Part shown: positions 38,432 to 60,168 of the stretch, piece by piece
Position numbering within the stretch: the stretch's first letter is position 1
Layout of the letters: every line of letters begins with the position of its first letter
Assembly: GCA_021107435.1 (NCBI GenBank)
Contig: JAIOSV010000104.1
Span: 1-64,000, forward strand
DNA: 64,000 nucleotides
Source of the DNA: Candidatus Sabulitectum sp.
Lineage (GTDB): Bacteria > Fermentibacterota > Fermentibacteria > Fermentibacterales > JCC-6
Reading direction: 5' to 3'
Notes under the pieces: generated by a model
Seen by the model: the letters and a program-made list of their open reading frames with translations, nothing else
Databases searched by the model: none
What the model was told of the DNA's origin: nothing
Made by a program: the position numbers and the translations under genes

Positions 38432-38474
38432 AAGAGCACCTCCAAATTCCTCTGCGTATTTCAGCAGAGCGTCA

Positions 38475-38551
38475 GGTAACCCGGCCGTCCTTCCCCCCGA
38501 AGAGGAGTTAGGACCCGTAGGCTTTGCGTCCCGGAATCTCTTCCGGTTTGC
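38475..38551 (-). ncRNA. c-di-GMP-I (GEMM) riboswitch aptamer, proximal
   Basis: Minus strand GCAAACCGGAAGAGATTCCGGGACGCAAAGCCTACGGGTCCTAAC...GGCCGGGTTACC matches GEMM-I core incl. GNRA-capped P1b. Confidence 0.9.
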
Positions 38552-38561
38552 GTTTAACAAC

Positions 38562-38645
38562 GGTAACCCGGCCATCCTTCCTGTTTCCCCAAAACAGGTT
38601 AGGATCCGTTGGCTTTGCGTCCCGGAATCTCTTCCGGTTTGCCAG
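38562..38645 (-). ncRNA. c-di-GMP-I (GEMM) riboswitch aptamer, distal
   Basis: Minus strand GCAAACCGGAAGAGATTCCGGGACGCAAAGCCAACGGATCCTAACCTGTTTTGGGGAAACAGGAAGGATGGCCGGGTTACC. Confidence 0.92.
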
Positions 38646-38680
38646 GCAGTGCTCAACCGCCCGACTAAGTATGCTTCAAA

Positions 38681-42929: not shown

Positions 42930-44150
42930 TTGATGACTTATGATTTTAACAAAATAATTGACAGGGAAAACACAAGCTGCATTAAATGGGACTACCTGAA
43001 TGCCTTCTTCGGGAAAAACAACCTTAATGCCATGTGGGTAGCAGACATGGACTTCAAAGTACCACCGGAGATCCTTAAACCTATTGAGGAACGTGCAGCG
43101 CATGGTGTATTCGGATACACCGCAAAGTCGGATGAATTCTACTCCGCAGTGATCAGCTGGTTCAAAAGAAGATATGACTGGAATATTGAGAAAGACTGGA
43201 TTGTCACCTCTCCCGGTGTTGTACCAGCTCTAAACCTGACTATGCAGGAATTCACAGAAACAGGGGACAATATCATTATCCAGCCTCCTGTGTACTTCCC
43301 GTTTAAAAATTCGGTGGAATTGAACGAGAGAAAACTTCTTGACAACGCACTTATTCTAAGAAATGGACACTACGAAATAGACTGGCTGGATCTGGAAAAG
43401 AAAGCGGAATCAGCAGAGATGTTTGTGCTCTGTTCTCCTCACAATCCTGTCTCAAGGGTCTGGACCACAGAAGAGCTTGAACACCTTGGAGACATCTGCC
43501 AAAGACACAATCTGCTGATCTTCTCTGACGAGATTCATGCTGACATCGTCTTCAAACCATACAGACACACACCAACGGCAAAAGTAAGCAGTAACCTGGC
43601 AAGCAGAACAATCGCCGCATACGCCACCAGCAAAACATTCAATCTGGCCGGTCTTCAACTGTCTGTGAATATTGTCCCTGATGATGAGATCAGGAAGAAG
43701 TTCAAGTTAACAATTGAGAGACTGCATTTATGCATGTCAAACATCTTTGGAATACTAGGCACGCAGGCAGCATACAATCACGGAGAGCAGTGGCTCGATG
43801 AGCTTATTCCCTATCTCCGGCAGAATTACCTGACGGTCAGAAATTATCTTCGGGAAAACGTTCCCGAAATTACAGTGATTAAACCGGAGGGAACATTTCT
43901 TCTCTGGCTTGACTGCCGGAAACTGGGGCTGAATGATGAGGAACTTGCAGCATTCTTTGTGCAAAAGGCCAATCTGGCTCTTACAAACGGAATCATGTTC
44001 GGTCCCGGAGGAAGCGGTTTCATGCGAATGAACATCGGTTGCCCGAAACAGAACATCATAAAAGGTCTGGAAAGCATAAAGAAGGCAATGGCCGATGATT
44101 CGCCAATCTTAACAGACTCCGGCCCTGCCAATACCCCGGATGATTGTTGA
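42930..44150 (+). CDS. PatB/MalY-type C-S lyase (cystathionine beta-lyase)
   Basis: WVADMDFKVPPEILKPIEERAAHGVFGYT; SDEIHADIVF; ATSKTFNLAGLQ. Confidence 0.94.
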   Translation: MMTYDFNKIIDRENTSCIKWDYLNAFFGKNNLNAMWVADMDFKVPPEILKPIEERAAHGVFGYTAKSDEFYSAVISWFKRRYDWNIEKDWIVTSPGVVPALNLTMQEFTETGDNIIIQPPVYFPFKNSVELNERKLLDNALILRNGHYEIDWLDLEKKAESAEMFVLCSPHNPVSRVWTTEELEHLGDICQRHNLLIFSDEIHADIVFKPYRHTPTAKVSSNLASRTIAAYATSKTFNLAGLQLSVNIVPDDEIRKKFKLTIERLHLCMSNIFGILGTQAAYNHGEQWLDELIPYLRQNYLTVRNYLRENVPEITVIKPEGTFLLWLDCRKLGLNDEELAAFFVQKANLALTNGIMFGPGGSGFMRMNIGCPKQNIIKGLESIKKAMADDSPILTDSGPANTPDDC

Positions 44151-44502: not shown

Positions 44503-44544
44503 ACTCTTCTCCTTTTTTTTCTCGGCAGTAAATATATTACCATC

Positions 44545-44690
44545 GTCGGCAGCGTCAGGGAAGCAGGTTAAACTCCTGCGCGGCCCCGCCGCTGTAACCG
44601 GAAACGAAACCGTAACAAACCATTGCAGCAATGCGAGAAGGCACGGGAGTAGGAAGTCCGGAAGCCAGAAGACCTTCTGCCGGCAGTTGT
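44545..44690 (+). ncRNA. Cobalamin (B12) riboswitch
   Basis: CAGGGAAGCAGGTTAAACTCCTGCGCGGCCCCGCCGCTGTAACCGGAAACGA...GGCACGGGAGTAGGAAGTCCGGAAGCCAGAAGACCTTCTGCCGGC, all hallmark blocks. Confidence 0.93.
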
Positions 44691-44765
44691 TTATCTTCAC
44701 CTTCGCGGGAAGGGTGGAGGGATGTTCCCTGCATTTTTTCACGCGGCCGAAATCAGGAGTTTAAA

Positions 44766-45956
44766 ATGAGCTCTTTCGCTATCGGCCTGATCCTTATGGC
44801 TCTGATATCAGGGGATGCCCTGGTCATCAGCGGCGGGAATCTGGCACACATCGACTCGGAAACAGGAACTGTTACTCCATCTGTGGGAACTCTCCACACA
44901 TACCCCAATGATGTAACCATTCATGACGGGTTTGCCTTCGTTGTGAACTCAGGTGTTGACATCGGTACTCTTCAGAGATTTGAACTGGGAACATGGGCAT
45001 TGACTGAGCTGGGAATCGGCTCCGGCTGGAACTGCTGGGCTTCGCTTCCGCTGGCAAACGGCAACCTGGCCGTTTCAGCCGCACTGAACAACTCTGTCTC
45101 AATAGTAAACCCCACTACGATGACAATTGTCTCTTCAATTGAAGGCGTTGGACCCAACCCGGAGTGGATGGACACTGAAAATAATCTGCTTTATGCGGCC
45201 TGCGGAGGCTGGGGTACAGGAGAATCAGTGGTTGTTGTAAACATTACAACAGGATCAACAATTGATACACTGACTGCTGCCACCAACTGTCAATCGCTTG
45301 TCTGCAACGGAGACGGAAAGCTTTTCGCAACCTGCAGCGGCACATACGGCAATGATGAAGGCAGTATTGTGGTCATTGATCTGTCAACAGGAGGCACAAT
45401 AGTTGAACTCGAAGTTGGAGGATTCCCCGGATACAGCACAGCCGCAAACGGTATTCTCTATCTATCAGACCCGTGGGACGCAGGCGTGTACTCCATTGAC
45501 ATGAACACTCTTGAAATCCTTCACGATTCCACTGATCCATTCTGCTCCGGCGGAGACGGCATGGCTGTGGATGACAGTGGCTACCTGTGGATATCCGATG
45601 GGATGAATGGAGAAGTAAGAGTATATGACACAACCGAAACCCTTGTTCAAACCTACTCTGTAACTTCACCGGCAGCCATTGCAGTAAGCGGTTCCTGGCT
45701 GGGTATTGAAGACGGCATCGTTGAAACCGGAATCTCAATTTCAGTATATCCCAACCCGGCAGTAAATGTTATCACTGTGTCAGGAGCAGCTCCAGGAGAA
45801 AGAGTAAGACTCTTTGACATCACAGGTAGAATCGCTGCTGAATCAATCGCCGAAGATAATGGCACAAGCACAATAGACATCTCCAGCCTCACAACAGGCC
45901 TGTACACAGTGAACAGCGGTACCTCAAACACCAGATTCGCGGTAACAGGGAAATGA
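44766..45956 (+). CDS. Secreted YncE/BtuG-like beta-propeller with Por/T9SS-like tail
   Basis: Repeats NPTTMTIVSSIEG, NITTGSTIDTLTA, DLSTGGTIVELEV, DMNTLEILHDS; tail ISVYPNPAVNVITVSGAAPGERVRLFDITGRI; just downstream of B12 riboswitch. Confidence 0.85.
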   Translation: MSSFAIGLILMALISGDALVISGGNLAHIDSETGTVTPSVGTLHTYPNDVTIHDGFAFVVNSGVDIGTLQRFELGTWALTELGIGSGWNCWASLPLANGNLAVSAALNNSVSIVNPTTMTIVSSIEGVGPNPEWMDTENNLLYAACGGWGTGESVVVVNITTGSTIDTLTAATNCQSLVCNGDGKLFATCSGTYGNDEGSIVVIDLSTGGTIVELEVGGFPGYSTAANGILYLSDPWDAGVYSIDMNTLEILHDSTDPFCSGGDGMAVDDSGYLWISDGMNGEVRVYDTTETLVQTYSVTSPAAIAVSGSWLGIEDGIVETGISISVYPNPAVNVITVSGAAPGERVRLFDITGRIAAESIAEDNGTSTIDISSLTTGLYTVNSGTSNTRFAVTGK

Positions 45957-46750
45957 TTCCTCTGATGCTGCTCTGCATGATAGCCGATCCATGGGCTGAT
46001 GCTTCTCCGGCAGTTGAGTATGGACCGGGGGCAGGCTACGGCCAGTCATATTACCCTGACAACGTTCTGGGGCCCCCGGATTCGACAGCAACTCCAACTT
46101 TTCCTTCATTTGGAGAAAATAACCTTCTCACGCTTGGTACAGATGGATGGGTTGTACTGGAGTTCACCGATAACAGCATCATCAACGGCTCCGGAGCTGA
46201 TTTTACTGTTTTCGAGAATGTCATGGAGACAGGATCAGGATACTTTCAGGAATGTGCTTTTGTAGAAGTCAGCCAGGATGGAGAGTACTGGATCCAGTTC
46301 CCGTGGAACGCAACCACCCTTGAGGGACTTGCCGGTGTAATGCCCACCACAGGAGAAGACCCCACAAACCCCGCGATCTCCGGCGGAGATCAGTTCAATC
46401 TTGATGATGTGGGACTGGACCTGATCCGCTTTGTCAGACTGACTGACTGCGGTGATGCTGTTGCTGACGGCGGTCTTTTCGATCTTGACGCGGTTGCCGC
46501 AGTAAACTGGATTGAGGGAAGCACCTCGAATCCGCTTCCCCTGTCTATCACCTCTCCATTCTCATCCAGCTTCACGGTTAACAGCACAGAAACAGGTATA
46601 CTGTTCTGCTATACAATTGATGGAAGAATTGCAAACCAGTGGTCAGTCAGCGGACAGCCTGTAACACTGAACGCGTCCAACCTTCCGGCAGGTGTACTGT
46701 TCTTTGTTCTGAATGAGTCATCTTTCTCTGCTGTGAAACTTCTGCTTTGA
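45953..46750 (+). CDS. Secreted cell-surface protein with sorting-like tail
   Basis: ATGA overlap with propeller gene; signal peptide; YGPGAGYGQSYYPDNVLGPPDS, FTVFENVMETGSGYFQECAFVEVSQDGEYW; tail FCYTIDGRIANQWSV..NLPAGVLFFVL. Confidence 0.82.
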   Translation: MIPLMLLCMIADPWADASPAVEYGPGAGYGQSYYPDNVLGPPDSTATPTFPSFGENNLLTLGTDGWVVLEFTDNSIINGSGADFTVFENVMETGSGYFQECAFVEVSQDGEYWIQFPWNATTLEGLAGVMPTTGEDPTNPAISGGDQFNLDDVGLDLIRFVRLTDCGDAVADGGLFDLDAVAAVNWIEGSTSNPLPLSITSPFSSSFTVNSTETGILFCYTIDGRIANQWSVSGQPVTLNASNLPAGVLFFVLNESSFSAVKLLL

Positions 46751-46772: not shown

Positions 46773-46812
46773 TGATAAAGCTGAGAGAAATCTTTCTCTC
46801 TCAGCTTTATCA
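46773..46812 (+). terminator. Intrinsic-terminator-like hairpin
   Basis: 16-bp perfect stem tgataaagctgagaga / tctctcagctttatca; no clear T-tract. Confidence 0.6.
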
Positions 46813-57868: not shown

Positions 57869-60168
57869 TGCTGAGTCTGACGATAGTGCTGCTTTGTGCC
57901 GGTTTCATTGAGATTGAAGTACATCCTGACCTTAACGGTTTGCATGTAATCAGCGAAGGCGTATTCCATCAAATTGTTTTACCTGATTCCCCTTTTCTGG
58001 GTTTGGAAGGAGAGCCGGATCTCCCCTTTATGCCTTTGAGATTTGCTCTGCAGAGCGGGCAGACGACCAGTAATGTAATTCTTCGCAACTGCCGATATGA
58101 TACGCTTCCCGGTTTTTACGATCTTGCGCCGGTAACTCCGATTCTATGCACTACTGGCACTGAAACCCCTTTCGTCTCACCTGATGCGCGTATTTATTCA
58201 AGTGACTCATTCTATCCTGAAAATCTACTGGAGCACTGGCAATCCGGAGTGCTGTGGGGAATGTCACTGGTAACTGCCTGGATAAGGCCTGTTCAATGGA
58301 ACCCGGTTACCGGACAGATACGGATTCTTCGCATGTCTGAAGTTGTTGTTGAATGCACAGAGGATCTCCGAAAACCAATGATTCGAGCAAGAACACAGTG
58401 GAGTGAAAACAGAGCCCTGGAGATTCTGGAAACCACAGTACTTAATCCTTGTGACATTTCTTCCTCCAGAGCCGCTATCGTCGAACCGGGGCAGTTACAA
58501 TACGGACAGTATGTAATTATCACAGCTCCCGAGTACCTGATTCCCATGCAGGAGCTTGCAGACTGGAAAACAGCCAAGGGCATTCCAGCTGGAGTCTTCA
58601 CGACGGACTGGGTTCAGAACAACTACCCGTGCCTTGATCTCCAACAGAGTGTACGGGCCTTTTTGACAGACTGCAGAGATGAGGGGGTCGATTTCGTTCT
58701 TCTAACGGGAGATAACGATATCTTCGAGGCTCGATTTACTTATCCGAATCAGTCCTCTTATACTCCACTTCCCTCTGATCTTTACTACGCTGACAACAAC
58801 GACATTCAGCCCGGTTTTGATATGTGGGACAGCAATGGAAACGGATTATGGGGAGAACCGGAAGACAGTCTCGACTGGCATCCCGACCTCTGGGTGGGCC
58901 GGGCATCGGTCAACAGCCTGGAAGAGGCGGAGATATTTGTGGACAAGGTCCTGATCTACGAACACGTCCAGACTGTCCCCGTGCTTCAGAACTCCGGCAG
59001 AAGATGGCCGGAAGAAACGCTGTTCGGGTATACAACGGGTTTCCTGCTTGAGGGGTCTGCAGCCCCGGGAAGCAGGTATGCTGAGTCTATCTCAGTCAAT
59101 GTTCCTTCTTTCTGGTTGGAAGAGAAGTGCTATGAATCATGGGGCAACAACTCAGCAGAAATCACGATTGCCATGATTAATAACGGCCCTCATCAGGTTT
59201 TTCATGCCAACCATGGTTTTGCAACCGGTATGTACACTGCATACGGAGATATATTCACTGTAGAAGACATTATGGAGTTACAGAACATCTCAAACTCGGG
59301 AAACGTAGCCATCTGGCATTCGATAGCCTGTGAACTGGGGGCCTTTGATACCCTGACATGCTGTGCTGACGCCTGGCTGAATGCCCCGGAAGGCGGTGGA
59401 TTCGCCTGCATGAACGCGCGGCCAGTCTTAGCAAGCTACAGTTTTCCCATATGTGAACAGTTCTATAACGCCTTCCTGGTCAATAATTTTTATGAGCTAG
59501 GCATTGCTCATGGTATGTCACTGGACTACCTGTGTCCACCAACGAGTGAGATGGCAGGCTGCATAATACAGGGCAACAACCTGTTCGGGGATCCGGAGCT
59601 ACCAATGTGGACGCTGCCCGGCGGCTCAATGATTGTAAGCTGCCCCTCCAGTATTGATGGCAGCTCTCAGATTCCAATACAGGTTTCGACATCAGAGGGT
59701 TTACCAATCGAAGGTGCCAGAGTATGTCTTCAGAAGGGGAACTGGCAGACCGGGGAAATCTATGAAGTTGGCTATACTGATATTGCAGGCCAATTGTCTT
59801 TGTACGCAAATCCCCAAACTCTTGGTGAAATCAATTTGACAGTGTGGGCTCACAACTTTGATCCAGACAGCAGGAGCATAACAGTCAGTTCTCTGGAGAA
59901 CATTACTATCCCCCGGCGCATCCTGATGAAGATCACCCCGAATCCATCAACAATTTCTGTTCAAATACAGTTCTCACTTCCCTGGCCTGCGGAAGTGCAA
60001 CTGAGTGTATTCGATATCTCAGGCCGCATTGTTTCTATTCCGGCTTCAGGACAGTATGGTTGCGGTCTCCACGCAGTAACAATAGATGATCTTCAACCTG
60101 GAATTTATTTTGCAAGAATTGAATCAGGTGATTTCTCTTCAACAATCAATTTCGTTCTAATCGACTGA
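57868..60168 (+). CDS. C25 (gingipain-like) peptidase with Por/T9SS-like tail
   Basis: YVIITAPEYLIPMQELADWKTAKGIPAGVFTTDWV; FHANHG..; SIACELGAFD catalytic region; NLFGDPELPMWT; tail PNPSTISVQIQFSLPWPAEVQLSVFDISGRIV. Confidence 0.92.
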   Translation: MLSLTIVLLCAGFIEIEVHPDLNGLHVISEGVFHQIVLPDSPFLGLEGEPDLPFMPLRFALQSGQTTSNVILRNCRYDTLPGFYDLAPVTPILCTTGTETPFVSPDARIYSSDSFYPENLLEHWQSGVLWGMSLVTAWIRPVQWNPVTGQIRILRMSEVVVECTEDLRKPMIRARTQWSENRALEILETTVLNPCDISSSRAAIVEPGQLQYGQYVIITAPEYLIPMQELADWKTAKGIPAGVFTTDWVQNNYPCLDLQQSVRAFLTDCRDEGVDFVLLTGDNDIFEARFTYPNQSSYTPLPSDLYYADNNDIQPGFDMWDSNGNGLWGEPEDSLDWHPDLWVGRASVNSLEEAEIFVDKVLIYEHVQTVPVLQNSGRRWPEETLFGYTTGFLLEGSAAPGSRYAESISVNVPSFWLEEKCYESWGNNSAEITIAMINNGPHQVFHANHGFATGMYTAYGDIFTVEDIMELQNISNSGNVAIWHSIACELGAFDTLTCCADAWLNAPEGGGFACMNARPVLASYSFPICEQFYNAFLVNNFYELGIAHGMSLDYLCPPTSEMAGCIIQGNNLFGDPELPMWTLPGGSMIVSCPSSIDGSSQIPIQVSTSEGLPIEGARVCLQKGNWQTGEIYEVGYTDIAGQLSLYANPQTLGEINLTVWAHNFDPDSRSITVSSLENITIPRRILMKITPNPSTISVQIQFSLPWPAEVQLSVFDISGRIVSIPASGQYGCGLHAVTIDDLQPGIYFARIESGDFSSTINFVLID

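Follow-up and report, generated by a model that had tools for sequence, protein, structure and literature searches.

Described BtuG and BtuH Systems

Protein capture of vitamin B12 by BtuG and BtuH is so far known from Bacteroides lipoproteins. Direct B12 binding by both proteins has been published, as has a fusion of the two in Bacteroides thetaiotaomicron (PMC10404256, PMC8941943, PMC12751083). This fusion places BtuG and BtuH in a single chain (8blw_B), named BtuGH (PMC12751083). In BtuG2, Trp194 and Trp272 constrict the cavity that takes the upper ligand (PMC10404256), and in BtuH2, Gln333 and Asn399 contact the ribose and phosphate of the nucleotide loop (PMC8941943).

The locus described here encodes a pair of proteins that is likely a B12-repressed accessory capture module, BtuG-like and BtuH-like, exported by the T9SS and feeding a separate BtuB–BtuG complex, with B12 binding by the pair being putative. 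The parts are of known kinds; the arrangement, the host, and the export route are new. A search of the open-access literature, with subscription papers outside its scope, found no description of a T9SS-exported BtuG or BtuH, or of B12 uptake in Fermentibacterota. Like BtuG1, BtuG2, and BtuG3 of B. thetaiotaomicron (PDB 8bmx, 8okv, 8p97, 8blw), the first protein of the pair is a predicted secreted beta-propeller under cobalamin-riboswitch control, two of its aromatic residues match those of the BtuG pocket, and BtuB is also encoded in the genome. It differs from them in that BtuG is lipid-anchored, while this propeller carries a T9SS sorting tail, does not adjoin btuB, and is only remotely similar, at about 17–18% in the structure match.

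The Locus and Its Host

The window, meaning the whole stretch of DNA that was analysed, comprises 64,000 nucleotides. Its genome belongs to Ca. Fermentibacterota, not Bacteroidota, and is 92% complete. In a neighbourhood comparison, most of the related genomes in the genus had the same genes next to the pair, which argues against assembly contamination.

The BtuG-like propeller ORF encodes 396 amino acids and lies at positions 44766–45956 (+), its start at the ATG at 44766 being fixed by the AGGAG at 44755–44759. Its stop codon overlaps the start of the second ORF as ATGA. This coupling had been noted in the original prediction, and the second ORF (45953–46750, +, 265 amino acids) does contain the peptide quoted there. 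The strong hairpin described after the pair was also found, as a perfect 16-bp stem 3′ of the second gene (46773–46812, +) inside a folded region of −29.9 kcal/mol and without a U-run (RNAfold); it is a candidate operon end. As had been stated, btuB is not adjacent: no btuB-like gene occurs in the flanks of the pair that were examined, and btuB is on another contig. The pair is followed by two ORFs, one sulfotransferase-like and the other hydrolase-like, each of which is missing after the pair in some close relatives.

Two other features of the window were recorded. A MalY/PatB-like aminotransferase gene (42930–44150, +) lies just 5′ of the riboswitch and outside the operon; its position is kept in the genus, and a link to sulfur amino acids is possible. 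Tandem c-di-GMP-I riboswitches (60.0 and 52.6 bits) are found at 38472–38653 (−). Located 3′ of them are a gene for a small secreted protein and others that, read from sequence, resemble genes for a polysaccharide polymerase, a glycosyltransferase, and an export protein, together a candidate c-di-GMP-controlled exopolysaccharide operon.

The Cobalamin Riboswitch and Its Linkage to the Pair

The pair is preceded by a full-length cobalamin riboswitch aptamer (RF00174, model positions 1–189) at 44533–44695 (+), with a cmscan score of 92.4 bits (E 1.3e-21) against a gathering score of 31.5 bits. The Infernal/Rfam check thus bears out the claim of a complete riboswitch, and the class, on which the original prediction depended, is the classical cobalamin one. 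Directly after the aptamer is the loop TTCGCGGG (44702–44709, +), whose sequence is the same in each of the 16 platforms compared, drawn from two genera. We take this loop to be, probably, L13 of a kissing-loop platform, as its GCGGG can be paired by eye with the CCCGC of the aptamer (L5).

In an alignment of 16 leaders from two genera, RNAalifold predicted a hairpin (44745–44787, +) around the Shine-Dalgarno AGGAG and the start codon. It was predicted separately in one genus (g1, with arms GGCCGA and TCGGCC) and in the other (g2), where the arms differ and still pair. Because this predicted hairpin encloses the Shine-Dalgarno sequence and start codon, and because its pairing is kept between genera, translational control is suggested, and the hairpin is a candidate translational off-switch. 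The direction of control, off with B12, would follow from the known behaviour of this riboswitch class.

Neighbourhoods were mapped across the phylum for the propeller, the second protein, btuB, the lipoprotein propeller, and riboswitches. The second protein has a match in 25 of 42 genomes, in two of which (G005 and G013) only the C-terminal part is matched, and weakly. A riboswitch above the Rfam cut-off is present at all 20 second-gene loci having enough upstream sequence, and the three loci lacking one are all cut by a contig end. Chance cannot account for this linkage. Two genomes (G040 and G001) have the second gene apart from the propeller and behind a riboswitch of its own, which is divergent from another riboswitch, so the link of this gene to B12 is independent of the propeller. 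Two mapped loci (L063, 5653–8930; L064, 14247–15614) have cobalamin riboswitches back to back, one of them before a BtuH-like gene. The propeller on the opposite side in L063 is broken across two frames.

The Propeller Is a Distant Relative of BtuG

Pfam matches of the propeller include DUF5074, SGL, and Por_Secre_tail (PF18962), and NCBIfam matches were also found. A PDB search with the single sequence gave weak matches only, and a profile was needed. When the profile was built from 15 propellers of the window type, its nine best PDB matches were all Bacteroides BtuG proteins (E 2.4e-9 to 8e-9), ranked above all other propellers. For the comparison of an AlphaFold model with BtuG, which had been proposed as a check, the model, made from three sequences, is weak (pLDDT 53.5), and in Foldseek its first-ranked match is an archaeal surface-layer propeller, while ranks 2 through 12 are BtuG proteins.

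In the profile alignment, Trp194 of BtuG2 corresponds to Trp149 of the propeller and Trp272 corresponds to Phe220, and both of these residues are invariant in the propeller family. The BtuG2 loop residue Tyr239 aligns to a gap, with an invariant Tyr194 nearby, and Tyr316 and Tyr335 of BtuG2 lie beyond the aligned region. A propeller with neither similarity to the B12 pocket nor binding would have counted against the original prediction; what was found is that the closest solved relatives are BtuG proteins and that two pocket positions are matched. The window-type propellers are also homologous to the riboswitch-controlled lipoprotein propellers linked to btuB across the phylum, the one on contig 91 of this genome included (hhalign 98.8%, E 5e-17). 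As judged from sequence, the propeller is a distant relative of BtuG, specifically related to BtuG over other propellers.

It could be argued that this is a generic surface propeller with a partner, serving as an adhesin or protein scaffold and placed under a cobalamin riboswitch by chance, since YncE/NHL-type propellers are widespread and this genome encodes much T9SS cargo. This explanation is very improbable, given that the linkage is conserved between genera and between families within the phylum, that the relation to BtuG is specific, and that homologous propellers are found beside btuB.

The Second Protein Resembles a Short BtuH Domain

The second protein has no Pfam match, a single-sequence PDB search with it found nothing, and a tblastn search found no relatives in plasmids. 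The AlphaFold model made from three sequences is weak (pLDDT 38) and was not used. A BtuH profile was made from five sequences, one from the 8blw chain and four from Bacteroides and Persicobacter plasmids, and was compared with 701 proteins. The 17 best non-BtuH matches (E 0.006 to 1.8) all belong to the second-protein family, placing 17 of its 20 members above all 681 other proteins. An hhalign comparison of the family with BtuH scored 31.9, with a probability of only 33%. Among the controls, 44 unrelated clusters reached at most 20.9, 100 column shuffles reached at most 25.1, and the reversed alignment scored 17.3. Against only two BtuH domains the comparison was non-significant, becoming suggestive only with the five fuller sequences. 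Because the hhalign probability and the E-values are of this order, the link to BtuH rests on the ranking, the controls, and the collinearity of the joint alignment, which extends end to end.

The BtuH-like domain spans about residues 12–190 and is followed by a sorting-like tail at about 199–263. It shares with BtuH2 and the BtuH domain of BtuGH (PDB 7biz, 8blw_B) a collinear core comprising EY-P..GQ, LLSLG/LLTLG, DF-V--N, E---V-V--D-G--W, FDI/FDL, and I-FI-I/V-L, and it is likewise partnered with a BtuG propeller. Within this core, Gln333 of BtuH2 falls within a few alignment columns of an invariant Gln of the family, and Asn399 corresponds to an invariant Asn. Unlike BtuH, the second protein has no PKD domains or lipid anchor, carrying a T9SS-like tail instead, and it is about 80 residues shorter. 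The missing stretch is an insertion that holds the corrin-ring contacts of BtuH2 (His476, Tyr510, and Trp511). On a Persicobacter plasmid, a BtuH-like gene is followed by btuB and a DUF5074 propeller. The second protein is classed as BtuH-like because of this gene order, the BtuGH fusion, and the alignment evidence. Its role had been given as unknown in the original prediction; from the profile ranking and the collinear alignment, it is now most likely a short, divergent BtuH domain, an assignment that is probable yet unproven.

An alternative is that the propeller binds B12 while the second protein, itself no B12 binder, has a structural or docking role and might, for instance, tether the propeller to BtuB or a surface structure. 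This would fit the loss of the insertion bearing the corrin contacts, the low absolute score of the BtuH match, and the precedent of BtuL, a lipoprotein of a B. thetaiotaomicron B12 operon that does not bind cobalamin (PMC12751083). The invariant Gln and Asn, however, match nucleotide-loop contacts of BtuH, and two genomes place the second gene behind a separate riboswitch, away from the propeller, making a purely docking role unlikely.

Other families were also compared. BtuJ and other B12-binding DUF4465 proteins are likewise accessory secreted proteins of B12 loci, but this identity was rejected, as none of 16 members of the second-protein family matches PF14717. Among the 42 genomes of the phylum, DUF4465 occurs in one, as a broken fragment (L140, G023:C423) that may be contamination. 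The Leptospira LIC_13355 lipoprotein family (NF033170) has a weak match (E 5e-4) to the FENV...VSQDG motif of the second protein, which scores 19.3 bits, far below the family cut-off of 120 bits. LIC_13355 reportedly binds laminin and plasminogen, not B12. If the motif match is real, its fold may also be BtuH-like.

Predicted Export Through the T9SS

The propeller had been described as having a signal peptide, the second protein as secreted, and both as having T9SS-like tails. Signal peptides are predicted on both, yet they are short and uncharged, so the inference of export leans chiefly on the tails and on relatives. The propeller lacks a lipobox and has instead a T9SS C-terminal sorting domain of type A at residues 327–389 (45744–45932, +; PF18962 E 1e-11, TIGR04183 E 4.1e-9). 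The tail of the second protein itself has no Pfam match, while Por_Secre_tail is found in 8 of 16 members of its family (best E 7.5e-8) and the family profile matches the solved structure of a T9SS C-terminal domain (8glj, E 0.0036). The genome contains SprA, 128 sorting-tail (Por) matches, and 31 C25 peptidases (PorU family). One of these 31, at 58510–60144 (+) in the window, has a T9SS sorting tail of its own. The strong acidity of the two proteins was dropped as support, as neighbouring secreted proteins are equally acidic.

A Separate BtuB–BtuG Operon and the B12 Physiology of the Host

A genome search for btuB and btuCDF, proposed along with the original prediction, located btuB on contig 91 and also found genes for a BtuFDC-like importer. 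On contig 91, an AdoCbl riboswitch (RF01482, 53.4 bits) leads a TonB-dependent receptor and a propeller. The best solved relatives of the receptor are the BtuB proteins of Bacteroides BtuBG complexes, and its best NCBIfam match is TonB-B12. The propeller has an apparent lipobox, and its solved relatives include BtuG1. The order riboswitch, btuB, propeller recurs across the phylum. Since the genome carries this ordinary operon, the module in the window is an addition to BtuB–BtuG, not a replacement. In one such locus (L103, 2–3067) and its relatives, the btuB–propeller operon is followed in many genomes by genes for a protein of about 790 residues with a GT4 glycosyltransferase part and a zinc carboxypeptidase.

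The BtuFDC-like set consists of a periplasmic binding protein, an ATPase, and a FecCD permease in a row. No riboswitch was found at these genes in a genome-wide search, and the transporter could import something else. The genome encodes the B12-dependent enzyme methylmalonyl-CoA mutase and B12-binding domains, and lacks the MetH activation domain. None of the 42 genomes of the phylum has CbiC, which marks corrin synthesis. Taken together, the T9SS, the importer, the mutase, and the absence of CbiC fit a bacterium that must take up B12, and the host is probably B12-dependent.

By inspection, two riboswitch-led operons in the phylum contain cobinamide salvage-like genes (CobC-, CobU-, CobT-, and CobS-like). 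One (L098, 3436–8632) also has btuB, and the other (L074, 1756–10117) has a BtuFCD-like set. Such operons in some relatives, known from sequence inspection only, and the binding of cobinamide besides cobalamin by BtuG2 (PMC10404256) would agree with a module that captures another corrinoid or a corrinoid-bound compound, such as cobinamide or a specific cobamide, with B12 being only the regulatory signal. This explanation, which overlaps with B12 capture, is rather improbable.

Proposed Function and Implications

The original prediction of a B12-repressed, BtuG-like scavenging pair with a C-terminal sorting tail is supported by the RF00174 riboswitch, the relation to BtuG, and the tails, while binding is putative. 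In the B12-capture reading, low intracellular B12 would allow the riboswitch to permit translation of both genes. Both proteins would then exit via Sec and the T9SS, either to stay on the cell surface or to be released. The BtuG-like propeller would bind B12 at its corrin face, and a second B12-binding surface, contacting the nucleotide-loop side, may come from the BtuH-like partner, both as expected from homology. B12 would be handed to the BtuB–BtuG lipoprotein complex, whose genes lie elsewhere in the genome, and the BtuFDC-like transporter would import it for use by methylmalonyl-CoA mutase and other B12-dependent enzymes. More tentatively, the secreted pair could act at a distance from BtuB, either on a surface layer that is mobile or as a released “cobalophore” that concentrates B12 for BtuB–BtuG, a possible but rather doubtful extension.

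The T9SS tail on a BtuG/BtuH-like pair in Fermentibacterota suggests that B12 scavenging of this kind probably extends beyond Bacteroides and beyond lipoproteins. Here, related proteins occur in another phylum, with a different export system and with genes apart from the transporter. This would show that B12 capture is older or more mobile than thought and separable from BtuB, and it would make the capture function predictable in uncultured, probably B12-dependent bacteria. The second protein, as a candidate minimal BtuH core, would be useful for asking which residues cobamide binding needs.
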